Shown here piece by piece: positions 2,946 to 20,042 of a stretch of DNA of 20,042 nucleotides. The translations under genes and the position numbers were made by a program. Position 1 is the first letter of the stretch. Each line of letters opens with the position of its first letter. Below the pieces are notes generated by a model, which searched no databases, was not told where the DNA came from, and saw only the letters and a list, made by a program, of their open reading frames with translations. This DNA comes from Jimgerdemannia flammicorona (lineage: Eukaryota > Mucoromycota > Endogonomycetes > Endogonales > Endogonaceae). Location: the NCBI GenBank assembly GCA_003990745.1, contig RBNI01002013.1, positions 1 through 20,042 of the forward strand, given 5' to 3'.

Positions 2946-4926
2946 ATGCCAACACCACCAAACAGCATCGAAAAAATCGTGAAAGAGAAGAGTAGTGTTG
3001 CGGGAATCCCCGCCGCACGTGCTTCAACGCCAACCCCCGCCGCACGCGCTTCAATGCCAACCCCCGCCGCACGCGCTTCAACGCTAACCCTCACCCCAAC
3101 CACCCACGCATCGCTGTCAAACGCGGCGCCACCAAGACCGTTTCTATTGAAGTTTCGCTCTTCCAAATTCTTCGTCCTGACGACAGTGAGCCTGGCCCTC
3201 TTCACCGACGTAAGCCGCGTAATGTTCATTGAGTTTTATCGTCGGATGTGCTTTGAACTTCACCGATCTAACATTTGATTCGCTGTTCGTACGTTTGCTT
3301 CAACTAGATTATTGTATATGGCATCATCATACCAATCATGCCATTCATCATTCAAGGCATCTACAGCGGGGTAGGCTACGACCCCAACATAGACCCTTAC
3401 ATTGTCTCCGAAAATTCAGCCTCTACTGCACGAGACACCGGCATCCTTCTCGCGGCATACGCGGTGGGCCTGCTCGGTGGCTCGCCCGTCTTCGGGATCA
3501 TGGGAGATCGCACCCTAACGCGTCGATTCCCAATGTTGATGGGCATGCTCGGCATGATCCTGTCGACGATAGTCCTCATGTTTGCCAATTACTACTGGCT
3601 CTTACTCATCGCCCGTTTCGCACAAGGCATCTCTGCCGCTTGTATATGGACCCTCGGATTGAGCCTCGTCGCTGATATTATTCCGGCGTCCGAACTCGGC
3701 GTGGAGATGGGCAAGGTCATGGTGTCATATTCGGTGGGGATGTTGGCTGGGCCGCCGATCGGTGGAGGTAGGCAGGCTGAACTTTGCGTTAGACCACGAC
3801 ATGGATTTCCACGCATTATCGGTCATGTTTGATAGCTCACGTTAATTCTCTGTTACCAATCCTTTTTTTAGCCCTGTACGCTCAACTAGGGCCCAGGGCG
3901 CCGTTCATTTTCTGTACCATCATCGCCATGACCGATTTTATCTTTCGTCTTCTGGTTGTTGAGAAGCGAAATGCCCCAAAGGAATGGTTTGACAATGACG
4001 ACGTCGAAAAAGCAGGGACTCTCTCAGCATCAGAGATATCCGAAAAGATCAACGTTCCCACAGAGAAGAGTGGCATCTCGGCCACCGCCTTAGACACCGT
4101 CATCGGTGCCGACAACGCGAACGAGAACAAACTAGAGACCACTACGACCTCAGCCGCGTCCGGAACTCTTGCCCGCCAAGAGGTGCAAACGCTCAGACTC
4201 ATCATGAACCCGCGCATGATTTCCGCCCTCATCGTGACTATTGTCAACTCCTTCCTCTATGGTGCCCTCGAGCCCACCGTCACGCTCCGCCTGGCCACGG
4301 AGTGGGGGCTCAACACCGGCTCGATCGGTCTGGTCTTCATCGCCCATGTTGTGCCCGGGTTCATTTGCGGGCCCGGTGCGGGGTGGGTGAGCGACAAGTA
4401 CGGGCCCAGGATTGTCGTTCTGGTCAGCATGATATTGACTGCCCTATGCACCATCCTGTTGGCGCTGCCGAACAAGGATACGGGGCTGTGGCCGTTGATT
4501 GTTGGATTGGTATTGATCGGTGGCGTTGGCGCTGCCTTCTTGTCACCTGTGTTGGCGGAAATTGCGGCTGTGGTGAATATGCAGGGAGGTCGGGAGGGCG
4601 ATGGGTTCGCGCGGAGTTACGCTATCTTTAACATGGCATTCAGTGTTGGTAAGTTTGGTAATCCAATTTTTTTTTATTTTATTTTTATTTTATTTTAATG
4701 AATTCGCTTGAAACCTTATAACTCATCTTGTTCACTCATCATAACAATAGGTTATCTGGTTGGCCCCACCACCAGTGGTATTGTGTATGGACAGTACGGC
4801 TTTTTCTGGGTCACCATCATGATCGCGGCCTTGATTTTCGCGACCGTTCCGATCGTCTACTTTTTCACCGGTACTCCGGGCCCCTTAATCCAGCGGAAAG
4901 TGACCCGTCCTCCAACTCCGGCATGA
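2946..4926 (+). CDS. MFS transporter, DHA1-type (drug:H+ antiporter / SLC18-like), four exons
   Basis: Exons 2946-3209, 3308-3767, 3872-4648 and 4751-4926 join to 1677 nt (558 aa). The introns (98, 104 and 102 nt) are GT-AG and keep the frame. The ATG was chosen for its CACCATG context. The N-terminus (about 80 aa) is an Ala/Thr/Pro-rich cytosolic tail with a 3 x 27-bp repeat. Membrane segments start at the end of exon 1 and continue into exon 2. MFS motif A is seen as GIMGDRTLTRRFP and motif C as SVGMLAGPPIGG, the antiporter signature. A charged central loop with an acidic and Ser/Thr-rich stretch (about 4000-4180) separates the two six-helix halves. The second half contains a motif-A-like GAGWVSDKYGPR. 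Role by family: proton-coupled efflux of small molecules at the plasma or vacuolar membrane; the substrate is unknown. No stops or frameshifts. A damaged tandem copy follows at about 6.9-8.5 kb. Confidence 0.9.
3011..3091 (+). repeat. 3 x 27-bp minisatellite in MFS exon 1
   Basis: Units start at 3011, 3038 and 3065, each encoding roughly PAARASTPT. The paralogous pseudogene near 6920 has a single unit, so the N-terminal tail length varies between copies. Confidence 0.85.
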
Positions 4927-5474: not shown

Positions 5475-5502
5475 CTGAAAAGTGACATATTATATGCGGA
5501 TT

Positions 5503-6060
5503 CAAAATCTGGATTTTATTATTTCAGCAACCTATTCTATTTACAGATTAGAACATGTGATGTATAATATATCAATTCTAAAACATACCATCAATAAAAG
5601 AACCCTACTTATTTATAAATGGTAAAATTTACAAATAATAACAACATTAGTTTCAGCTCTTGCTAAAAACCTCATCAATAGACTAAAACTATCCAGACCA
5701 GCTATTAGCAAAAAACAAATACTATAATACTAAAATAAGATTTATATAATCAACTTATATAATATTGAAAAAAAAAAAAAATTCTACTTTATTATAAATC
5801 ATTGATATCTTACTATCTATCTCCCATACTATTCAATATTATATTTATAATATCTATTTATTACAAAAGTAACAATTCTTATTATAACACTCTCTTTAAA
5901 CTTATTTTAAGTAAAATCTAATACTTCAACATTCAAACCTATACCATATTTACAAACTATAAACTAAAACATTATCTATAGATATTTAAATCAAAATACC
6001 TCTAAAAAAAGTTTATCTTTCAAAATAAATAAACGTTCTTATATACAAACATATCAGATA
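5503..6060. other. Very AT-rich, G-poor core
   Basis: Mostly A, T and some C on the plus strand, with conspicuously few G. Contains a run of 14 A near 5767. No coding frame on either strand. It could be the mutated remains of transposon DNA. Confidence 0.6.
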
Positions 6061-6824: not shown

Positions 6825-8466
6825 AGGAAATTCCGTTCACGGATGATACACGTGACATTCGCTAGTAAAACGAGACATATCAATTCGTGGAAGAAGAGAA
6901 GAGTAGTGTTGGGGGAATTCCCGCCGCACGCGCTTCAAAGCCAACCGCCCACGAATCGCGGCGCCACCAAGACCGTTTCTATTGAAGTTCCGCTCTTCCA
7001 AATTTTTCGTCCTGACGACAGTGAGCCGGCCCTCTTCACCGATGTAAGACGCATAATGTTTTTGGGATTTATCATCGGATGTGATTTGAACTGCACCTAC
7101 AGAATCTAACGTTTGATTTGCTGTTCGTACGTTCGTTTCAACTAGGTTATTGTATATGGCATCATCATACCAATCATGCCATTCATCATTCAAGGCATAA
7201 ACAGCGAGGTAGGCTACGACCCCAACGTAGACCCTTACGCTGTCTCCAAAAATTCAGCCTCTACTGCACGAGACACCGGTATCCTCTCGCGGCGTACGCG
7301 GTGGACCTACTCGGCTTCGGGATCATAGGAGATCGCTTCCTAACACGTCGATTCCCAATGTTGATGGGCATGCTCGGCATGATCCTGTCGACGATACTCG
7401 TGCTTTCCAATTACTACTGGCTCTTGCTCATCGCCCGTTTCGCACAAGGCGTCTCCGCCACTTGTGTATGGACCCTCGGATTGAGCCTCATCGCTGATAT
7501 TATTCGGGCACTCGAACTCGGCGTGGAGATGGGCAAGATCATGGTGTCGTATTCGGTGGGGTTGTTGGCTGGTCCGCCGATTGGTGGAGGTAGGATGAAC
7601 TTGTGCGTTAGACTACGACATGGATTTCCATGTATTATATCGGTCGTGTTTGATAAGTTCATGTCAATTCTTTGTTACCGATCCCTCCCTTTTTTTTATG
7701 TTAGCCCTGTACGCTCAACTAGGGCCCAAGGCGCCGTTTATTTTCAGTACCATCCTCGCTGATGATTTTATCTTCCGTCTTCTGGTTGTTGAGAAGCGAA
7801 ATACCCCAAAGGAATGGTTTGACAATGACGACGTCGAAAAAGTAGCGACTCCCTCAGTAACAGGGATATCCGAAAAGATCAACGTCCCCACAGAGAAGAA
7901 TAGCATCTTGGCTACCGTCTCAGACACCGCCATTGGTACCGACAACGCGAACGAGAACAAAATAGAGACGACCTCAGCCGCGTCCGGAACCCTTGCCCGC
8001 CAAGAGGTGCAAACGCTCAAACTCATCATAAACCCGCGCATGATTTTCGCCCTCGTCGTGGCGATTCTCAACTCCTTTCCTCTACGGGACCCTCGAGCCC
8101 ACCATCACGCTCCGCCTGGCCACAGAGGGGGGGGGGGTTCAAAACCGGCTCGATCGGCCTGGTCTTTATCGCCCATGTCATTTGTGGGCCCAGTCAGATG
8201 CGGGATGGGTGAGGGTGAGTGACAAGTACGGACCCAGGATCGTCGTTCTGATTACCATGATATTGACCGCCACATGCACCATCTTGTTGGCGCTGCCGAA
8301 CAAGGATACGGGACTCTGGTCGTTGATTGTTGGATTGGTATTGGTCGGTGGTGTTAGCACTGCGTTCTTGTCGCCCGCGTTGGCGGAAATTGCGGCTGTG
8401 GTGAATATGCAGGGAGGTCGGGAATCGCGCGGAGTTACGCTATCTTTAACATGGCATTCAGTTTTA
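6825..8466 (+). pseudogene. Tandem MFS transporter paralogue, inactivated and truncated
   Basis: Homologous to the MFS gene at 2946-4926 from its promoter (about 6825) through three exon equivalents: exon 1 remnant about 6891-7043, exon 2 7146-7589, exon 3 7705-8466. Introns at 7044-7145 and 7590-7704 keep GT-AG ends at matching places. Damage visible against the intact copy: loss of the segment holding the start codon; a 1-nt deletion near 7030; a 1-nt deletion near 7285 and a 12-nt deletion near 7313; an extra T near 8078; a G run expanded to 11 at 8127-8137; deletions near 8180 and 8425. The third intron begins (GTGAGT at 8467) but is interrupted at 8527 by the large transposon, and the fourth exon is absent. 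Motif A and motif C remain readable in exon 2. Confidence 0.9.
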
Positions 8467-8482
8467 GTGAGTTTGACAATCC

Positions 8483-8508
8483 AAAAAAAAAAAAAAAAAA
8501 AAAAAAAA
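8483..8508. repeat. Run of 26 A in the pseudogene's third intron
   Basis: The equivalent intron of the intact copy (about 4662-4697) has a T-rich tract instead. The run lies 18 bp before the transposon end. Confidence 0.9.
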
Positions 8509-8575
8509 GAGTTCTCTTGAAACATTAGAGCCGCTCAAAGTTCGATCCGAAAATGATCGCATCCATTTTTATCTA

Positions 8576-8612
8576 GAGCGCCTTCCATTTTCATCGTGAG
8601 CGCCTTCTAATT
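8576..8612 (+). repeat. Subterminal direct repeat, 22-bp spacing
   Basis: The word GAGCGCCTTC occurs at 8576 and 8598, and the mirrored pair occurs in the right arm. Such paired words near transposon ends can be transposase or Myb-protein binding sites; that role is inference. Confidence 0.5.
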
Positions 8613-9138
8613 TTGGATGGAACCCTAACCCTGGCTGAATTAGGTGAACTCTATGACCCGTAATCTGATTTTAATGTTCTTGGGCCCATTAGAAAGCCCT
8701 TGATAATGTGGTTCTAACAAGCTTAAGAACATTAAATTTGGATGATATTCTGTAGAGTTATGATTGAAAACATCCAAATTTCTATAATGCAGCCTTAATT
8801 ATAGATCACTAATGATTTTGGCCTTAATTTGGGTCTGATTAAAGGTCATGATTATTAGTGGCCTACAAACAATTTGCCTTATTTCTCAACAACCTATCAT
8901 CCGGATTTGATGTTCCTAGGCTCATTAAAAATCCATGAATATTGGGATTGCAGTACACTATATTTTATAAAATTTGGATAATAAGTCATTGAGAAATGAA
9001 GCAAAATATTTAAATCATACAAATCTATTAAATGGCCTTAAATTACAGACCACTAATAATCTCAGCCTTAATTTGGGACTGCTATCTTAGTTACTGGCCT
9101 CTGATTTAAGGCCAGAATTATGATTTAGCTCAGTCAAG

Positions 9139-11609
9139 TGTGTGCCCTCTCATGGCCACTGCTATTTGCTTTAAAATAGACCAAACACAGATCGTGAGCT
9201 TCATTCCATCATGCAGCCTTCACACAGTTCTGACATATAGTCAAGATTTAGGTCAAGGTCATGTTCTGCTTCAGAGACTCGACTAGGCCATGTGCTCTCT
9301 CAGCGCCAATGCTATTATCTTTAAAATGAATAGGGGATGAGTGAAATGCACAGATCGTGAGCTTCTTTCTATACACAATGCTTTACACAGTTCTGATATA
9401 CAGGAGATTCAGCTCAGCCAAGGTCGTATTATGCTTCAGAGACTTGGCTAGGGCACATGCCCTCTTATCGCAAATGCTATTCCCTTTAAAATGAACAGAG
9501 AATAAGCAAAATGCACAGATTATGAGCTTCATTCCATCGCGCAGCTGCACAATGCTTCACACAGTTCTGATATATCTCAAAGATTCAGCTCAGTCAAGAT
9601 CATGTTCTGCTTCAGAGACTCAGTAGAGCACGTACCCTCTCGCCACCAATGTCATTCCCTTTAAAATTGAACAGAGGATGAGCAAAAATGTACAGATCAC
9701 GAGCTTCATTCCATCACGCAGCAGTACACAATGTTTCACACAGTTCTGATATGCCTCTGAGAATCAGCTCGGTCAAGGTCATGTTCTGCTTCAGAGACTT
9801 GGTTAGGACGCGTACCACTTCGTCGCCAATGCTATTCACTTTAAAAATAAACAGGGGATGAGTGAAAATGTACAGATCATGAGCTTCATTCCATCGTGCA
9901 GCTGCACACAATGCTTCACACAGTTCTGATATACCTCGGAGATTCAGCTCGGTCAAGGTCATGTTCTGCTTCAGAGGCTTGGCTAAGGCATATGCTCTCT
10001 TACCACCAGTGTCATTCCCATTAAAATCTACTTTAGAGACTTGGCTAGGGCGCATGCCTCTCGTCGCCAATGCTATTCCCATAGGAGATGAGAGAAAACA
10101 CACAGATCATGAGCTTCATTCCATCACACAGCTGCACACAATGCTTTACGCAGTTCTGACATACCTCTGAGATTCAGCTCGTGTTCTGCTTCAGATACTT
10201 GACTAGGGTGCATGCCCCTCGTCGCCAATGCTATTCCCTTTAAAAATAAACAGGGGATGAGTGAAAATGCACAGATCATGAGCTTCATTCCATTATGCAG
10301 CTGCACAAAATGCTTCACACAGTTCTGATATACCTCAAAGATTCAGCTCAGTCAAGGTCATGTTCTGCTTCAGAGACTCAGTAGGGCACATACCCTCTCA
10401 CCGCCAATATCATTCCCTTTAAAATTGAACAGGGGATGAGTAAAAATGTACAGATCGCGAGCTTCATTCCATCATACAGCAGCACACAATGTTTCACACA
10501 GTTCTGACATGTCTCCAAGAATCAGCTCAGTCAAGGTCATGTTCTGCTTCAGAGACTCAGTTAAGGTGCATGCCACTTCATCGCCAATACTATTCCCTTT
10601 AAAAATGAACAGGGGATGAGTAAAAATGTACAGATCACGAGCTTCATTCTATCGCGCAGCTGCACACAATGCTTCACACAGTTCTGATATACCTCAGAAA
10701 TTCAGCTTGGTCAAGGTGGTGTTCTACTTCAGAGGCTTGGCTAGGGCACAGTGTCATTCCCATTAAAATCTGCCTTAGAGACTCATGCCCCTCGTCGCTA
10801 ATGCTATTCCCATAGGATATGAGCAAAAACACACAGATTGAGCTCCATTCCATCATGCAGCTGCACACAATGCTTCACACAGTTCTGACATACCTCTGAG
10901 ATTCAGCTCATATTCTGCTTCAGATACTCAGCTAGGGCGCATGCCCCTTATCGCCAATGCTATTCCCTTTAAAAATGAACAGGGGATGAGTAAAAATGCA
11001 CAGATCATGAGCTTCATTCCATCGCGCAGCTGCACACAATGCTTCACACAGTTCTGATATACCCCGGAGATTCAGCTTGGTCAAGGTTGTGTTCTGCTTC
11101 AGAGGCTCGGCTAGGGCCCATGCTTCCTCGCTACCAGTGTCATTCCTATTAAAATATGCTTTAGAGACTTGGCTAGAGCGCATGCCCCTCATTACTAATG
11201 CTATTCCCATAGGAGATGAGCGAAAATGCACAGATCGTGAGCTTCATTCCATCACGTAGTTCTGACATACCTCTGAGATTCAGCTCGTATTCTGCTTCAG
11301 ATGCTCAGCTAGGGTGCATGCCCCTCGTCACTAATGCTATTCCCATAGGAGATGAGTGAAAATGCACAGATCGTGAGCTCCATTCCATCATGTGGCTGCA
11401 CACAACATGCTTCACGTAGTTCTGACATACCTCCGAGATTCAGCTCGTGTTCTGCTTCAGATACTCAGCTAGAGTGCATGCCCCCTTGTTGCCAATATTA
11501 TTACCTTAAAAATAAACCGGGAATGAGTGAAAACGCATAGATCATGAGCTTCTTTTCATAATGCAGTTGCACACACATGACATACCTTTGAGATTCAGCT
11601 TGGTCAACC
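9139..11609 (-). pseudogene. LRR exon/intron array, left arm
   Basis: About 17 degenerate units read on the minus strand, each with the RI/NLR-type LRR pattern NSIGDEGARALAESLKQN followed by a TLTELNL-type segment. Units are recognisable by the complement of the NSIG codons (CCAATGCTATT or CCAATGTCATT words) near 9303, 9470, 9640, 9824, 10005, 10064, 10222, 10402, 10583, 10797, 10953 and onward. The LRR segment is about 84 nt and is separated from the next by about 96 nt bounded by GT(A/G)TRTC and TTTAAAG. Many units carry stops, a missing G that shifts frame, or fused neighbours. No start, end or non-LRR domain of a parent gene was found. Confidence 0.75.
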
Positions 11610-11806
11610 CTTTAAAATGTCCGGATTCCATCTCCCATCCTTGTTCATCTCTTATCCTCTGCTATTAATTATTATTTATCCTTTATATTTTATCCAATTA
11701 TTCAACTATATTATATCCTGTTGCCTATTAATTGTCTATCTGTATTCATCTCTGTCATATATATATATATTTCATTCTGTCTCTCATTCCCTCATTCATC
11801 TCTCTA
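11610..11806. other. Pyrimidine-rich spacer at the left core edge
   Basis: Degenerate T/C/A-rich repeats of TATCC/ATTCATCTC type with an AT dinucleotide run near 11757. In reverse complement it resembles the A/G-rich repeats at 15620-15800, so it may be an eroded inner continuation of the inverted arms. Confidence 0.45.
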
Positions 11807-13101
11807 TCATTGTCTATTTTCTTCCTCGGTCTCATCTTCTTCCTCAGTCTCATTTTCTTCCTTAGTCTCATCTTCTTCCTCAGTCTCATTTTCTTCCTCA
11901 GTCTCATCTTCTTCCTCAGTCTCATTTTCTTCCTCGGTCTCTCTCTCACTGCTTTTACTGGAGGTTGTAGCTTCTTCTTCTATCATACTTTGACTTTTAT
12001 ATCTCATCTCAATAGCATACATCTTTCTTTTGTTCCTGTGTTTATTCTGTCTTGCCCTTTCCTTTGCTCTCTGCCTTCTTGTCTCCACATTCTTCTCTCT
12101 TGTTTCTGCATTCTTCTCTAATACTTTTATATGCCATAATTCCAAATCATAGGTAAGCTGATCACGTTTTCTCTTTCTATCCTCTTCTCCTTCTATCTTC
12201 CTACCTATCAACTTCTCTAAGTTCTGCACTGCCTTGGTCAACTCATGAATAGATTCAGCAATATTCTGCTTAGCTTTTTCTTTAATGTATCTTCATTTGT
12301 GATTGTTACACTTGTTAAATCTATCAGCAGATGTGGGAAGAGGTTTGGAAGATATCTGAAGATATCATGCATGGTATCATACCATTCCCAGCACAATGAT
12401 TTATTTCCTGATTCCTTATTATGCTTTCGAATAAGATAATAGGTCTCAAGCATACGGTATACTTTGCGCCAGACACTGCCCTTATTGCGAGTAAGTCCCT
12501 CTTGTTGTATCTACTGCATATATAGCTTATCCTTAGACATTTGATACTTTATAAAGTTTATCTGAATATGTTCAAGAAGTCTATGAAGTAGTTCTTTAGG
12601 CCACAGCCTTGTTTCAACAGGTCAAAGATCAGGTGTATTCGAGATGATAGATGATGTTGGTCGAAGCATGTTGTCTGCAGGTTCATCAGCATCACTGCCA
12701 TTTCTTTCTTCCTTGTCTTCGACATCTAGATCATCTGGATCATATATTTTTTGTAAGGCTTCAACTGGATTGCATGGTATAGTAGTGATGATTGCAGATG
12801 TGGTGGAGGGGGTAGCTCTAGGTTTCTTAGATGGTGTAACCTTTTCTTTTCCCTTTCCCTTGTCTCTTGATTGCTTTTGTCCTTAATGTAGTGTTTGAGT
12901 TGGTTCACTTTCATTCTCATTGATGGTAATAGCATTCAATCCTGTTCCCAAGGAGGCAGTGGTGGAGATAGCTGACCCATCATCTGTCCCAGACTGAGGA
13001 AGTGCTGGTACACATCCAGATTCAAATATAAACCGGGTTTTGCGCTGCATAGCTAATTTCTGTATTTGTGCTGAATTCTGTAGAAGTTGTATAGTATACA
13101 T
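11807..13101 (-). pseudogene. Myb/SANT-like DNA-binding protein of the Harbinger element, inactivated
   Basis: Read from 13101 downward. The frame has three in-frame stops: TAA at 12885-12883, TGA at 12624-12622 and TAG at 12513-12511. It then needs a 1-nt frameshift near 12280 to join the last 145 codons ending at 11807. About 431 codons in all. Order: N-terminal low-complexity region; basic KGKGKEK/PSKKPR stretch (possible nuclear signal); acidic linker; a Myb/SANT or MADF-like domain (W-P-K-E-L-L-H-R-L-L, then a W-R-K-V helix and WEWYDTMHDIF) at about 12600-12330; then a charged coiled-coil tail and a Glu-rich repeat tail. By family knowledge, such proteins bind the transposon ends and bring the transposase to them. 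All three stops can arise from single C-to-T changes (CAA, CGA and CAG). Start codon uncertain. Confidence 0.75.
11821..11941 (-). repeat. 18-bp tandem repeat encoding a Glu-rich tail
   Basis: About 6.7 copies of an 18-bp unit; on the minus strand they encode alternating ETEEEN and ETEEED. Forms the acidic C-terminus of the Myb-like protein. Confidence 0.85.
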
Positions 13102-13271
13102 CAGAATGTGAATATTGTGCTGAATTATAGAAGTCTTGTTAAGTCACGTCATGCTGAATTGTGGTAGTGGGCATCATATTGTAAGTCAGAATATAAACTA
13201 GAACTCCGCAACCTGACCCGACCTGTATACATAATTGACGCAACCCAGCAGAATACAACCCAAAAAAAAAG

Positions 13272-13818
13272 CTGACCTTGCAGCTCACCTGATCCTTCAC
13301 ATAAATATAAATAACTCCACCGATACCTATTAGAATTTAATAATATTCTTATGCTTGATTCGCCATGTAAAGGTAAATCCAACAAGCTAAAGTACATCCA
13401 AATCGGATGTATATTCATGGAGTTATTAACATTATCTGTGGTTGGGTCGGGTTATCAGGTTCAGTATGACGCAGAGAGACAGAGAATAAATCCATCCCCG
13501 ACCCATCTGTAGTTGGGTCGGGTTATCAGGTTCAGTATGACACAGAGAGACAGAGAATAAATCCATCTCCGACCCATCTGTGGTTGGATCAGGTTATCAG
13601 GTTCAGTATGACGCAGAGAGACAGAGAATAAATCCATCTCTGACCCAACTACAAAAATGTTAATAACTCCATGAATATACATCTTATTTGGATGTACTTT
13701 AGCTTGTTGGATTCACCTTTATATGGCAAATCCAGCACAATAAAAATTATTAAATTCTGATGTGTATTCTTGGAGTTATTCACGTTTATGTGAAGCTTCA
13801 GGTGTGTTGCAGGGTCAG
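13272..13818. repeat. Nested foldback with about 161-bp arms
   Basis: The left arm (13272-13432) and right arm (13657-13818) are imperfect inverted repeats. The innermost 27 bp (GATGTATATTCATGGAGTTA and onward) match exactly. The loop is the 3 x 71-bp tandem array. It could be a small MITE-like insertion or part of the element's own regulatory region. Confidence 0.8.
13441..13652. repeat. 3 x 71-bp tandem repeat
   Basis: Copies start at 13441, 13512 and 13583, each beginning GTTGGRTCRGGTTATCAGG. They fill the loop of the surrounding foldback. The copies differ mainly by transitions. Confidence 0.9.
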
Positions 13819-13956
13819 ATATTTTTTGCTGCTATCAAAATCAAATCTCTGACCAGCACTATTCACATACATAACAAACAGCTCAAATTTAGAGTCCGAT
13901 CTGACAGAGCCCAATTACCAATGCCTCTATTTCAACTTCAGCATGATGCTAATGTT

Positions 13957-14275
13957 TTTCTGACTTACAATATGACGCCAACAATGCCGACTTCAACAAT
14001 TATCATATTCTGACTTATAGTATGATACCCGCAACACCAACTGCCACAATTTATTTCAATATCCATATTCTGACTTACAGTACGACACCCATAATACTGA
14101 TCTCTATATTCTTTTACAGACTCTGCAATTCAGAAATCTCTGTTGTGTGAACTTCTATAATTCAGCGCAATCCTGACTTCGACAGCACATCACTATATTC
14201 GGACCAGACTTACAGCACAACACTATATTTGGACCTGACTTACAGCACAACATCTATATTCTGACTTACTGTGAC
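13957..14275 (+). repeat. Dispersed CTGACTTACAG-type motifs upstream of the transposase
   Basis: At least five variants of ATTCTGACTTACAGTAYGACAC occur near 13957, 14005, 14068, 14206, 14238 and 14262, and one in the opposite orientation near 13180. They are candidate binding sites for the element's Myb-like protein; this is inference. Confidence 0.5.
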
Positions 14276-14293
14276 TACTGGCGTGATGATCTG

Positions 14294-14417
14294 ATGCCTC
14301 AACTTTCTAAAAAACTTCCAGCCCTCATACAAGCAGCAGCAAGTCTGTCAGTAATAGCTATAATAGATACCATTATTGAAAATGAAACGAGTTCTTCTGA
14401 TAGTGATGTTGATGATA

Positions 14418-14463
<46 letters not shown>

Positions 14464-15616
14464 CAAAACTACTCTGGAAGGGGCAATGGATGTTCGTTGC
14501 TTAGCAAATGAGATATTGGCAAGTGCAGACTTATCTCAATCTCGATATAGCACTCCTCAAAGACATAGAATACCTATCTCTTTGGACTGGGTAAACAATG
14601 TGCTTCCATACTATGAAGATAGAGAATGTCTTAAAGTTCTGAGAATGAAGTGAAGTACATATGACAAGTTGGTATTGGAGTTGATGTCACATCCCATGTT
14701 CCAATCAAACAAACAGCAAACTCTAGTACACATTCAGGTTGCAGTATTACTTAAGTGACTTGGTGGACTGATGATATATGCTGAGTTATCAATGCTCTTT
14801 GACTGTGCAGAAGGATCTATTGAAACCTTTTGTACAAGAACTATGACAGCAATTGTTGATAACCTGAGGGCAACATATGTTCAGTAGCCATGTGGAAAAT
14901 AATGTCAAGAAGTTCATGAAGGATTTCAGCAAATTGCAGGCTTTCCAAGTGTTATTGGTGCAATTGATGGCACTCATATTCCTTTTCAAGATGCACCAAT
15001 AGACAATAAGACATCTTACTGATCAAGGAAGATGAAGTATGCACTGGCAGTATAGGCAACAGTTGACCATCTTGCAAATTTCACCAGCTTTGTAATTGGA
15101 TGGCCAGCATCATGTCATGATAGAAAGATTTTCAATGAATCATTTCTTCCTAAAGACTATATGAAATATTTTATTAATGATGACTATCTTCTTGCAGATG
15201 ATGGCTACAAATCTTGTGCAACATATATGATCTGTCCTTATCCAAAGCCACCACACAGAGATCTTAGAAATATATTCAACAAGCGTCTATCTAAAACTTA
15301 TGTTGTTGTTGAGCATGCTTTTGGTAGACTGAAGACATGTTTTCCACTCTTGAGAAGTCTTCACACAAGGAATCCCGTCAAAGCTGTAAATCTCATCCAT
15401 GCAGCTATGATATTACACAACTTTATTCAAGCCTCAAATGACACCATATTACCACCTAGAGAAGAAAATACAGGAGATGAAGAAAATGAAGATGAAGACG
15501 AAAATAGTCAATATGAAGTACAAAGAAATATATTATTTCAAGGACTGGAGAATGATGGTGAGGGTGATCAGAAAAGGAACATAATTATGGCAATGTTACT
15601 TACTTCACAACAGTAG
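14294..15616 (+). pseudogene. HARBI1-type (PIF/Harbinger) DDE transposase, inactivated by stops
   Basis: A single frame of 441 codons runs from ATG 14294 to TAG 15614-15616 with six internal stops: TGA 14651, TGA 14756, TAG 14885, TAA 14900, TGA 15020 and TAG 15053. All could be made by one transition from CGA, CAG, CAA or TGG, and none needs a frameshift. The N-terminus has an acidic poly-Asp stretch from a GAT microsatellite. The DDE_Tnp_4-type catalytic region is clear: VIGAIDGTHIPF (Asp at 14966), ATVDHLANF, GWPASCHDRKIF (Asp at 15119), LLADDGYKS, and VVEHAFGRLK (Glu at 15311), ending in AAMILHNFI. A Lys/Glu/Asp-rich tail follows. It would cut and rejoin the element's ends with help from the Myb-like partner encoded divergently. 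Length fits the family. Catalytic acidic residues remain; the protein is not producible from this copy without readthrough. Confidence 0.92.
14402..14465 (+). repeat. GAT microsatellite encoding poly-Asp
   Basis: About 19-20 GAT triplets with a few variants, inside the transposase N-terminus. Confidence 0.9.
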
Positions 15617-15805
15617 AGGAGAAGATGAAAGTCAGACTATTGAAATAGAATATGGACAGATGATAGGATAAAATCTGGATGATGAGCAATAAATAGACAA
15701 TAGGATATAATATGAATAGATAACAGGATGGAATATGGATGATAAAATATAGATGGACAATGGATATAATATAAAGAACAGAATATGGACAGACGATTGT
15801 AGAGA
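15617..15805. repeat. A/G-rich degenerate repeats at the right core edge
   Basis: Repeated words of the type GGATGATA, ATATGGACAG and AATAGACAATAGG. In reverse complement they resemble 11640-11815. No coding frame was accepted on either strand. Confidence 0.5.
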
Positions 15806-15812
15806 ATGTGAC

Positions 15813-16051
15813 AGATCCCTGCTGAACCAACTGAACCTGCCAAACCTGCCAAACAAATACCTGCTCCTGTGAAACCAACACCCACCACACCTTCCTCTGC
15901 CAAGCCAACACCCACTACTGATGAACTAACATTTATCTCTGCCAAACCAACATTCATCCCCACTGAACTGATACTCACTCCTAAAAGAAAGCCTGATGCC
16001 ACCAACCATGAAACACCCACCACAAGACTGAGCAACATTGTGAACTCATAA
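15813..16051 (+). other. Pro/Thr/Ala-rich open frame of unknown status
   Basis: Open for about 79 codons from after a TGA (no Met until 15869) to TAA at 16049-16051. Composition is dominated by Pro, Thr, Ala and Lys, with KPTPTTPSSAKPTPTT and a basic TPKRKP patch. It resembles the disordered tail of a nuclear protein. It may be the former C-terminal tail or a third product of the transposon, or chance. No domain recognised. Confidence 0.3.
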
Positions 16052-16112
16052 AAGTAATGCTGCGTGAATATAAGAGCAAGATCTGTCTGACAGAATAGGA
16101 AGATCCACCCTA

Positions 16113-19100
16113 CCTTGACCGAGCTGAATCACAAAAGTATGTGAAGCATTTTGTACAGCTGCGTGATAGAATGAGACTCACAATGTGCATTTTCATTCAT
16201 CTCCTGTTCAATTTAAAGGGAATGACATTGGTGACGAGGGGACATGCATACTGGCCGAGCCTCTGAAGCAGAACATGGCCTTGACTGAGCTGAATCTCGA
16301 AAGTACGTATGTCAGAACTGTTGTGAAGCATTGCGTGCAGCTGCGTGATGGAATGAAGCTCACGATCTGTGTATTTTTGCTCATCCCCTGTTTATTTTAA
16401 AGGGAATAGCATTGACCAAGCTGAATTTCGGAGGTATATCAGAACTGTGTGAAGTATTGTGTACAGCTGCACGATAACAATCTGTGTATTTTTGCTCATC
16501 CCCTATTCATTTTAAAGGAAATGACATTGGTGGTGACAGGTATATGCCCTAACCAAGTCTCTGAAGCAGAACACGACATTGACTGAGATGATTCTCAGAG
16601 GTATGTCAGAACTGTGTGAAGCATTGTGTGCAGCTGCGAGTTCACAATCTGTGAGTTTTCGCTCATCCCCTGTTCATTTTAAAGGAAATAACATTGGTGA
16701 CAAAGGGGCATGTACCATAGCTGAGTCTCTAAAGCTGAACACAACCTTAACCAAGCTGATTCTTGGAGGCATGTCAGAACTGTGTGAAACATTGTGTGCT
16801 GCTATATGATGGAATGAAGCTCACGATCTGTACATTTTTGCTCACCCTCTGTTCAATTTTAAAGGGAATGACATTAGCAACGAGAGGGTATGTGCCCTAC
16901 TAAGTCTCTGAGCAGAATACAACTTTGACTGAGCTGAATCTCTGAGGTATATCAGAACTGTGTGAAGCATTGTATGCAGCTGCGCGATGAAATGAAGCTC
17001 ATGATCTATGCATTTTCACTCATCCCCTATTCATTTTTAAAGGGAATAGCATTGGCGATGAGGGGCACGTGCCCTAGCCAAGCATCTGAAGCAGAACACG
17101 AACTGAATCTCAGAGGTATGTCAGAACTATGTGATGGAATGAAGCTTATGATCTGTGTATTTTTGCTCATCTCCTATGGGAATAGCATTAGCGACAAGGG
17201 GCATGTGCCCTAGCCGAGTCTCTAAAGCATATTTTAATAGGAATGATACTGGCGGCGAGGAAGCATGTGCCCTAGCCGAGCCTCTGAAGCAGAACATGAC
17301 CTTGACCAAGCTGAATTTCCGGGGTATATCAGAACTGTGTGAAGCATTGTGTGCAGCTGTGCGATGGAATGAAGCTCATGATCTGTGCATTTTCACTCAT
17401 CCCCTGTTCATTTTTAAAGGGAATAGCATTGGTAACGAGGGGTGTGTGCCCTAGCCGAGTATCTGAAGCAGAACACGAGCTAAATCTCGGAGGTATGTCA
17501 GAACTGCATGAAGCATTGTGTGCAGCTGCATGATGGAATGAAGCTTACGATCTGTGTGTTTTCTCTTATCTCCTATGGGAATAGTATTGGCAATGAGAGG
17601 CATGCACCCTAGCTGAGTCTCTAAAGTAGATTTTAATGGGAATGACACTGGCGGTGAGGGAGCACATGCCTTAGTCGAGCCTCTGAAGTAGAACATGACC
17701 TTGACTGAGCTGAATCTCTGAGGTATATCAGAACTGTGTGAAGCATTGTGTGTAGCTGCGCGATGGAATGAAGCTCATGATCTGTGCATTTTCACTCATC
17801 TCCTGTTCATTTTTAAAGTAAATAGCATTGGCGATGAAGTGGCACGCATCCTAACCGAGTCTCTGAAGCAGAACATGACCTTGACCGAGCTGATTCTTGG
17901 AGGCATGTCAGAACTGTGTGAAACATTGTGTGCTGTTGCATGATGGAATGAAGCTCGCGATCTGTATATTTTCGCTCATCCTCTGTTTAATTTTAAAGGA
18001 AATGACATTGGCGGCGAGAGGGTATATGCCCTACTGAGTCTCTGAAGCAGAACACGACCTTGACTGAGCTGAATCTTTGAGATATATCAGAACTGTGTGA
18101 AGCATTGTGCAGCTGCGTGATGGAATGAAGCTCATAATCTGTGTGTTTTGCTCATCCCCTGTTCATTTTAAAGGGAATAGCATTTGCGATGAGGGGGCAT
18201 ATGCCCTAGCCAAGTCTCTGAAGCATAATATGACCTTGGCTGAGCTGAATCTCCTATATGTCAGAACTGTGTAAAGCATTGTGTATAGAAAGAAGCTCAC
18301 GATCTGTGTATTTCACTCATCACCTATTTATTTTAAAGATAATAGCATTGGTGCTGAGAGGGCACATGGCCTAGTCGAGTCTCTGAAGCAGAACATGACC
18401 TTGACCTAAATCTTAACTGTATGTCAGAACTGTGTGAAGGCTGCATGATGGAATGAAGCTCACGATCTGTGTTTGGTCCATTTTAAAGCAAATAGCAGTG
18501 GCCATGAGGGGGTATACACTTGACTGAGCTGAATCATAATTCTGGTCTTAAATCAGAGGCCAGTAACTAAGATGGCAGTCCCAAATTAAGGCTGAGATTA
18601 TTAGTGGCCTGTAATTTAAGGCCATTTAATAGATTTGTATGATTTAAATATTTTGCTTCATTTCTCAATGACTTATTATCCAAATTTTATAAAATATAGT
18701 GTACTGCAATCCCAATATTCATAGATTTTTAATGAGCCTAGGAACATCAAATCCAGATGATAGGTTGTTGAGAAATAAGGCAAATTGTTTGTAGGCCACT
18801 AATAATCGTGGCCTTTAATCAGACCCAAATTAAGGCCGAAATCATTAGTGGCCTGTAATTAAGGCTGCATTATAGAAATTTGGATGTTTTCAATCATAAC
18901 TCTACAGAATATCATCCAAATTTAATGTTCTTAAGCTTGTTAGAACCACATTATCAAGGGCTTTCTAATGGGCCCAAGAACATTAAAATCAGATTATGGG
19001 TCGTAGAGTTCACCTAATTCAGCCAGGGTTAGGGTTCCATCCAAAATTAGAAGGCGCTCACGATGAAAATGGAAGGCGCTCTAGATAAAAATGGATGCGA

Positions 19101-19130
19101 TCATTTTCGGATCGAACTTTGAGCGGCTCT
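16113..19130 (-). repeat. Right inverted arm (about 3.02 kb)
   Basis: Reverse-complement partner of 8527-11609. The outer 612 bp (18519-19130) show, by eye, about 14 differences from the left arm, all transitions, with equal length. The inner array matches unit for unit over most of its length but lacks one higher-order duplication present on the left. Confidence 0.85.
16185..18540 (+). pseudogene. LRR exon/intron array, right arm
   Basis: About 16 units on the plus strand. LRR segments begin after AAAG near 16219, 16401 (truncated), 16518, 16684, 16863, 17041, 17178, 17420, 17577, 17819, 17999, 18173 and 18338. The clearest is 17819-17902, exactly 84 nt, reading NSIGDEVARILTESLKQN and then MTLTELILGG, followed by 96 nt (17903-17998) that ends in AG. 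Skipping the 96 nt restores the 28-residue spacing of ribonuclease-inhibitor/NLR-type LRRs, so each unit looks like one phase-matched LRR exon plus an intron. Some units have GC in place of the GT donor, frame-shifting losses of one G in a G run, or fusion without an intron. No intact gene. Confidence 0.75.
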
Positions 19131-19406
19131 ATTGATATATATTTAGATGAACAAAATCACCGCATTAGGCTGATATGACTTTTTAATTTGGACGCATTCG
19201 TATGCAACGTCCTTTTTTGAGAGATGTGTTATGGTGCGTTGGTGTCGCCAGCCAGCACAACGCATCGTACCTGACGAATACACCGCCCCAGAAAACGATA
19301 TATCGAATTTGTAATCATCCGGCATTTTTTCCGAGCCAGCCTGGCATCCATAAGTACTCCCCCTAATGTCTCCACTTCCATTCCACATCACAAACCACAC
19401 ATCACC
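19131..19406. other. Right flank of the transposon and leader of the oxidoreductase relic
   Basis: No gene. It does not resemble the third intron or fourth exon of the MFS gene. The last 60 bp are pyrimidine- and CA-rich, typical of a fungal 5' leader, and run into a CACCATGG start context. Confidence 0.5.
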
Positions 19407-20042
19407 ATGGTCAAAGCCCTGATTCTCCCCCGCCGCGGGCGCTGCCCTGCAAATCGTGACTAACTGGACCAAGCCCGTCCCACAGGCTGGCGAAGTGCAT
19501 CGACTGGAAACAGGCGAAGCATGGATATTACATCACCGAGTCCTCGGCTGTAATTATGCGGGTGTCGTGAGGTGAATCGCATTTATGGGTGGCCGAAGGG
19601 TATATGCGCGCGGTCGGATAATGTGAAATGTTTAGGGGTCTTGCGTGGATGGGGGGGGGGGTTTTTTAATCGTTTCTGTAGGCTAAAACGTTCAGCGAGT
19701 ATGTTGTTTCCTCAGATGCCTTGTTGGCCAAGGTATGTGTTCAGTATATATATATATTTCTTTGCTCGGCTTTTGCTGTGACTCGATCATGTTTGAGTAA
19801 ACTACCACACCACACAGATCCCCGATAAGCTGTCGTTCGAACAGGCTGCCACCATCAATCTTGGGGCCGCCATCTCATTTATCGCCCTTTACCGCGAGCT
19901 GAAGTTGCCTCGCCCACAAGAACACAAGGTGTTTGACAATCCCGAATATATCTTGGTACGAAACACTTTCTGAATATGCCAACGTTCTTTTATTCTCTAT
20001 AATGTTGATTTTGTTCTCATCGCGAGTGCAAACCCCCCCCCC
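19407..20042 (+). pseudogene. MDR-superfamily oxidoreductase (trans-enoyl reductase / quinone-oxidoreductase type), broken and cut by the window end
   Basis: Starts at CACCATGG with MVKALIL. A run of five C then shifts the frame, and the next piece reads PAAGAALQIVTNWTKPVP through AGEV. The frame shifts again, with a likely deletion, to IDWKQAKHGYYITE (the conserved N-P-x-D-W-K region), and once more to VLGCNYAGVV (the GCDFAG-V region). Later pieces fit a spliced gene: TFSEYVVSSDALLAK ends at 19732, a GT-AG intron spans 19733-19817, and an open 46-codon exon (19818-19955) begins IPDKLSFEQAATINLG, followed by a GT at 19956. The family uses NAD(P)H to reduce enoyl or quinone substrates, often in secondary metabolism. 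The segment between the GVV and TFSEY pieces is too short and disordered, with an 11-G run. The first frameshift is in a homopolymer and could be a sequencing error, but the deletions are not explained that way. Confidence 0.75.
20033..20042. repeat. Run of ten C at window end
   Basis: The homopolymer ends the window. Together with the A/G run at the start it suggests assembly boundaries. Confidence 0.7.

Follow-up and report, generated by a model that had tools for sequence, protein, structure and literature searches.

The window, i.e., the whole stretch of 20,042 nt of Jimgerdemannia flammicorona DNA analysed here (contig C2013), contains a 10.6-kb element in which inverted arms of ~3 kb enclose a 4.5-kb core. 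The element interrupts a gene for an MFS-type transporter, and its arms are largely filled with LRR-coding units (Table 1).

Table 1. Coordinates of the features at the locus, counted from the first nucleotide of the window.
Feature	Position	Strand	Remarks
Second copy of MFS-type transporter gene, 5' half	6954..8526	+	interrupted in apparent intron; 3' half on C4428
Whole element	8528..19129	.	GAGCCGCTC...GAGCGGCTC; TA on either side (8526-8527 and 19130-19131)
Left outer arm, non-LRR	8528..9119	+	
Left LRR array	9120..11607	-	13 anchors of LRR units (exon and intron), most with frameshifts
Possible Myb/SANT-like accessory gene	11810..12882	-	broken by stops and frame changes
Inverted pair 13263-13448 / 13642-13827 (84%)	13263..13827	.	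related to dispersed repeat family
Harbinger/IS5-type transposase	14177..15613	+	single frame interrupted by six stops; D-D-E motifs recognisable
Right LRR array	16110..18537	+	mirror orientation; 11 unit anchors found
Right outer arm	18538..19129	-	
Unique right flank	19132..20042	.	does not continue the interrupted MFS gene

The two arms align without gaps over 1857 nt (8523-10379 with 17278-19134) at 94% identity, a match that was judged by its length and identity not to be due to chance, and more pairs are present further inward. Counted inward from 8528 and 19129, the outermost 126 nt of both arms are identical, and 598 of the outer 612 bases match. Thus, the arms of ~3 kb and, for the outermost 126 nt, the exact inverted ends described in the sequence-only reading are borne out. 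The identity between the arms declines from 99% at the element end to 90% at 1.8 kb. Each arm consists of ~590 nt of outer sequence followed by ~2.4 kb of tandem LRR exon and intron units. The claim that these units fill the inner arms as mirror images holds for their orientation, with the left array on the minus and the right array on the plus strand, but not for the inner ~1.3 kb, which is not a simple mirror: aligned identity there is 70-84%, and the order of the units differs. The limits of the left array were placed by eye, using repeat and host matches; as judged by unit lengths, four of its units are missing from the right array. A segment of the left outer arm (8656-8784) is ~70-80% like a dispersed repeat found on 36 other contigs, and the one copy of this repeat that was examined (L008:1217-1703) is a palindrome of ~490 nt (90%). 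The inverted pair within the core is probably a nested MITE-like insertion.

The transposase in the core matches the Pfam domain DDE_Tnp_4 (E 1.8e-27) and has 41 relatives, one of them named HARBI1. The earlier assignment to HARBI1 thus stands as far as the domain is concerned, but the reading frame is broken. The closest named relative is from Rhizophagus, and proteins of rusts, animals and plants are more distant. In a tree rooted at its midpoint and containing no labelled PHISTA reference, the transposase clusters with Rhizophagus and ten environmental proteins (support, 0.999), away from the rust clade (Puccinia/Austropuccinia). The Myb/SANT-like gene that was also reported in the core had been proposed on its appearance, and the candidate found no support in Pfam, NCBIfam, a homologue search of protein databases or a sequence search of PDB. 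Its predicted fold offered nothing usable (mean pLDDT, 44.9), and it overlaps an 18-nt tandem repeat at 11798-11959.

The interrupted gene is present in the window also as a first, paralogous copy at 3119-4666, which has a Pfam MFS_1 match and is 86.6% identical to the left-flank half. Between the two copies, positions 5501-6000 are very AT-rich (GC, 0.21; CpG o/e, 0). The 3' half on C4428 starts directly after an element end, and searches with 100 nt from the 5' side and 645 nt from the 3' side retrieved only the interrupted halves and the first copy, the apparent intron of which represents the empty site. Against the sequence of this paralogue, CCTTATAAC, the junctions read CATTA/GAGCC and GGCTC/TATTATAAC. 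The target duplication is ambiguous: it would be TTA if the final TA is right-end sequence, and an indel relative to the paralogue would make it TA. TA adjoins all three element ends seen, and the empty site in the paralogue favors 3 bp. Since the 3' half of the MFS gene sits on C4428, the right flank in the window is discordant, and either an assembly switch or ectopic recombination may have produced it.

Copies of the element were searched for throughout the assembly (134.8 Mb in 7754 contigs). A second copy was found on C5244 (core, 96%; arm, ~91-96%; 40 of 118 candidates scored), which aligns with positions 9297-14976 of the window at 94.6% identity over 5.7 kb and has the same left LRR array. 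This contig exits the element at window position 14976, in the middle of the transposase gene, and the right arm of the second copy is not assembled. Its terminal 421 nt (L010:2419-2839) have no real match in the window and represent an insertion or a misjoin. The arm on C5244 is interrupted by an LTR retrotransposon (L009:379-6737) with direct terminal repeats of 1481 nt that are 95.7% alike, Pfam dUTPase and aspartyl protease frames, and a CpG o/e of 0.38. A third element end, distinct from both ends in the window, forms the first 255 nt of C4428 (40 of 382 candidates scored); it lies at the contig edge, where a solo end and a full element are indistinguishable. With up to 3 mismatches allowed, a 21-nt terminal pattern was found at four sites (control, 0): it matched exactly at two sites in the window and one on C4428, and with 3 mismatches on C413. 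Of the further copies with matching ends to which the sequence-only reading had looked for support, a second copy and a third matching end were thus found, and the three distinct ends adjoin three different flanking sequences. Over the outer 1.8 kb, the left, right and C5244 arms are about equidistant. Both arms were seen together only once, in the window. The family would therefore appear to comprise about two copies, with no burst, and the fragmented assembly may hide repeats.

Nine other contigs match the transposase; two of these were seen whole, three along with several kb to either side, and four only within ~1.5 kb. On eight of the nine, no LRR sequence was found within the stretch examined. 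The ninth, C826, has an LRR array nearby, which is of the host type (CpG o/e, 0.92; 5/7 exons open) and has no inverted partner in the stretch examined. Since eight related contigs are without LRR and the C826 array is host-like, the LRR arms look peculiar to the family of the 8528-19129 element.

An LRR unit consists of an exon, which is 84 nt long in host arrays, and an intron of ~95 nt. The host LRR family is large, with one 28-residue repeat per exon and highly alike introns. Arrays of the same kind, all running one way, are present on at least 35 contigs besides C2013 and C5244 (40 of 212 first-look candidates scored, giving 361 matches; contigs counted by eye), and among the matches listed, both LRR orientations occur on C2013 only. 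All six arrays sampled look like host LRR sequence, not like copies of the element. Among exons at anchors with recognisable splice sites, 54 of 63 in these arrays were 84 nt long and open (C912, 9/11; C3207, 15/15; C1159, 3/6; C1313, 9/11; C25, 13/13; C826, 5/7), whereas in the arms this was the case for 8 of 33 (left, 3/12; right, 2/11; C5244, 3/10). The anchors omitted from this scoring numbered 1/13 in the left, 0/11 in the right and 1/11 in the C5244 arm, and 6/17 in C912, 3/18 in C3207, 9/15 in C1159 and 2/9 in C826, and their number was not recorded for C1313 and C25. Exons of 74, 83 and 85 nt recur in matching order in the two arms as well as in the second copy, and lengths of 80 and 82 nt are common to both arms of the window. 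Since the same odd lengths recur in matching order, the LRR fragment must have been damaged before the arms and copies separated. The element contains no intact LRR gene. The suggestion that it could spread LRR exons through the genome is not supported: two copies and one further end were found, and 25 of the 33 arm exons as well as the transposase are broken.

In a tree of 100 units (30 from the arms and 70 from five host arrays; units outside 150-230 nt dropped), 28 of the 30 arm units formed one clade (0.927) within the diversity of the host units, in support of the earlier proposal that an LRR fragment was captured and amplified; the outermost pair of arm units clustered elsewhere (0.999). 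After purine/pyrimidine recoding, by which transitions are neutralised, the arm units fell into five groups (supports, 0.18-0.99), with the outermost unit again apart. Because recoding splits the clade, a single origin of the arm units does not seem secure, and shared CpG decay may have added to the clade. LRR genes matching the arm units were found in so far as host arrays of the same kind exist, but no donor was identified among the candidates scored (40 of 212), the best host matches being 82-83% over ~440 nt. The array on C3207 is preceded on the same strand by a kinase-like open frame, with named relatives in Endogone and Jimgerdemannia. The donor was probably a kinase-LRR gene of the host.

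CpG o/e is 0.28-0.51 inside the element, in arms and core alike; it is 1.09 in the left and 1.0 in the right flank. Of the six host LRR arrays, three gave values of 0.78-0.91 and the others 0.87, 0.87 and 0.92. In bins of 500 nt, the drop begins and finishes with the element. The loss of CpG suggests cytosine methylation and deamination of the element, and the copies seen look dead. Since arms and host arrays differ in their open exons, recurring odd lengths and CpG content, the arms would represent a broken fragment of host LRR sequence that was captured, expanded and inverted.

How transposons acquire long, internally repeated arms is an open question. The arm repeats described here recognisably come from outside the element, namely from host LRR exons and introns, with which reading frame and CpG content can be compared, and because of this source, the order of capture, inversion and expansion could be established. 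The element illustrates a way in which the ends of a transposon can be assembled out of exons of its host. Literature searches for captured fragments, foldback or LRR together with Harbinger, and for LRR together with foldback TIRs, retrieved no element of this form, in agreement with the earlier statement that no described family of this form was known; they were judged by titles and the starts of abstracts and mostly covered papers outside subscription journals.

In Pack-TYPE transposons, the captured DNA usually lies between the TIRs. Like the present element, these DNA transposons take up coding sequence of their host, and a survey in plants includes Harbinger-PIF (PMC8903248). They are described there as plant and non-autonomous elements, whereas here the captured DNA became the TIRs. 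Membership of this group was rejected, since a transposase gene, be it broken, is present besides the captured fragment. With PIF/Harbinger (PHIS) elements as surveyed by Han et al. (2015, PMC4482050), the element shares a DDE_Tnp_4 transposase with D-D-E, G as the first TIR nucleotide, a target of the TA/TTA type and the presence of TIRs. However, the TIRs reported in that survey are 5-1042 bp long, ~93% of them under 60 bp, and the autonomous consensus is ~4.1 kb; the present element is 10.6 kb long, and its arms of ~3 kb, about three times the longest TIR reported there, are built of host LRR units. Two further traits of PHIS elements are a second gene with a Myb/SANT domain, for which the present element offers a suggestive ORF that found no profile, homologue or fold support, and a 3-bp TWA target duplication, which TTA would fit if one TA is counted with the right end. 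PHISTA elements, which are fungal relatives of Harbinger with TA TSDs and cargo genes, similarly combine a Harbinger-like transposase and TA next to the ends with extra, non-transposase sequence, but their described cargo is a TET/JBP gene (PMC12730594), and here LRR pseudo-exons lie within the arms. Membership is not supported by the midpoint-rooted tree without PHISTA reference mentioned above, in which the transposase stands apart from the rust proteins, with Rhizophagus and environmental proteins. Long TIRs with internal tandem repeats, unequal in number between arms, are also known from the Drosophila elements Galileo (PMC3573991), of the P superfamily, and Tetris (PMC4079207). Their repeats of ~210-220 bp derive from the elements' own sequence, whereas those described here derive from host exon and intron units. 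The TIRs of Galileo and Tetris are reported to extend via recruited sequence, and Galileo to undergo ectopic recombination (PMC3573991, PMC4079207). On the basis of its transposase and its long arms with internal tandem repeats, which support the earlier classification, we place the element with PIF/Harbinger (PHIS), of which it would be a foldback-like variant.

We consider it likely that a PIF/Harbinger (PHIS) element took up a stretch of a host LRR array, mirrored it in its arms, moved, inserted in the MFS intron, was silenced and decayed. In this scenario, a cut-and-paste transposon would have acquired exons and introns of a host LRR gene beside one of its ends. During repair, the fragment could then have been copied to the opposite end by a template switch or by conversion, giving rise to the long arms, and unequal exchange may have enlarged the array. 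From then on, the arms would have worked solely as very long, foldback-like terminal inverted repeats, not as genes. The element would have transposed at least once more, landing in the intron of the MFS gene, after which it was presumably silenced by methylation and decayed.

Long, near-identical arms would also invite exchange between copies, and this offers one of the two readings of the right flank: with arms and core taken as genuine, two copies of the element would have recombined ectopically, as described for Galileo, and so produced this flank. Such arms are indeed present on two copies, and both MFS halves adjoin element ends on different contigs. However, contig breaks in a near-identical outer arm are usual assembler behavior at repeats, and we hold recombination to be unlikely. 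A more radical explanation is an assembly artefact, in which a false join of distinct copies would have created the mirrored arms within one contig. The position of the MFS 3' half next to the third element end on C4428, while the window runs into unrelated unique DNA, could be taken as a sign of this, and C4428 and C5244 both break within the outer arm. Plain doubling would have yielded identical arms, however, whereas the arms differ by 1-10% over the outer 1.8 kb as well as in the number and order of the inner units, and both continue without N into the core. Such an artefact is thus quite improbable, and we infer that an assembly switch was confined to the outer right end, at ~18733-18875, and that the arms are not false.

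With respect to function, transcription across the arms might generate a long hairpin, and from this dsRNA and small RNAs directed against the large LRR gene family of the host, so that LRR receptor-like genes would be silenced by a mobile element. Exact 21-mers of the arms occur in the six host arrays (left, 355/2468; right, 342/2408; C5244, 336/2273; reverse complement, 0), and with up to 2 mismatches, the numbers for sampled 21-mers are 474/823, 471/803 and 454/758, respectively. In maize, similar inverted duplications at Mu killer reportedly trigger silencing. However, the arms are 4.5 kb apart, and host arrays share 21-mers to a similar extent among themselves (2-25%), so that this role seems quite improbable. 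The element nevertheless offers a place to test whether inverted arrays of host genes feed small-RNA silencing.

The reverse direction, in which the LRR units arose in the transposon and host LRR genes were built from them, might be considered in view of the abundance of LRR arrays and the proximity of one to another Harbinger copy (C826). It is very improbable, as the host units sampled are more diverse than those of the arms, their 84-nt exons are open and their CpG content is near normal, one host array follows a kinase-like frame, and most contigs with a related transposase (8/9) have no LRR in the stretch examined. That the core alone is the transposon, which landed in a palindromic LRR pseudogene cluster, is hardly conceivable, common as host LRR arrays are, since the matching ends lie outside the arrays, adjoin three different flanks and interrupt a gene, the second copy has the same left array, and CpG depletion begins at the outer ends.

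Other Harbinger-type sequences in the assembly include a family represented by C4301:2214-8319 (L061, L044, L062) and C5083:1-6093, which share 6.1 kb at 95%. Its ends read ATA or TTA directly followed by GGGCTATTC, and it has no LRR match. Use of these ends to determine a target duplication was abandoned, as the ends were found only singly and the 33 matches to the pattern mostly resemble another fixed repeat. Two further related transposase copies, on C4391 and C7335, are 87% alike across 1 kb, and each is located near direct repeats of ~1.5 kb with 73-74% identity; the stretch on C4391 has a CpG o/e of 0.05.
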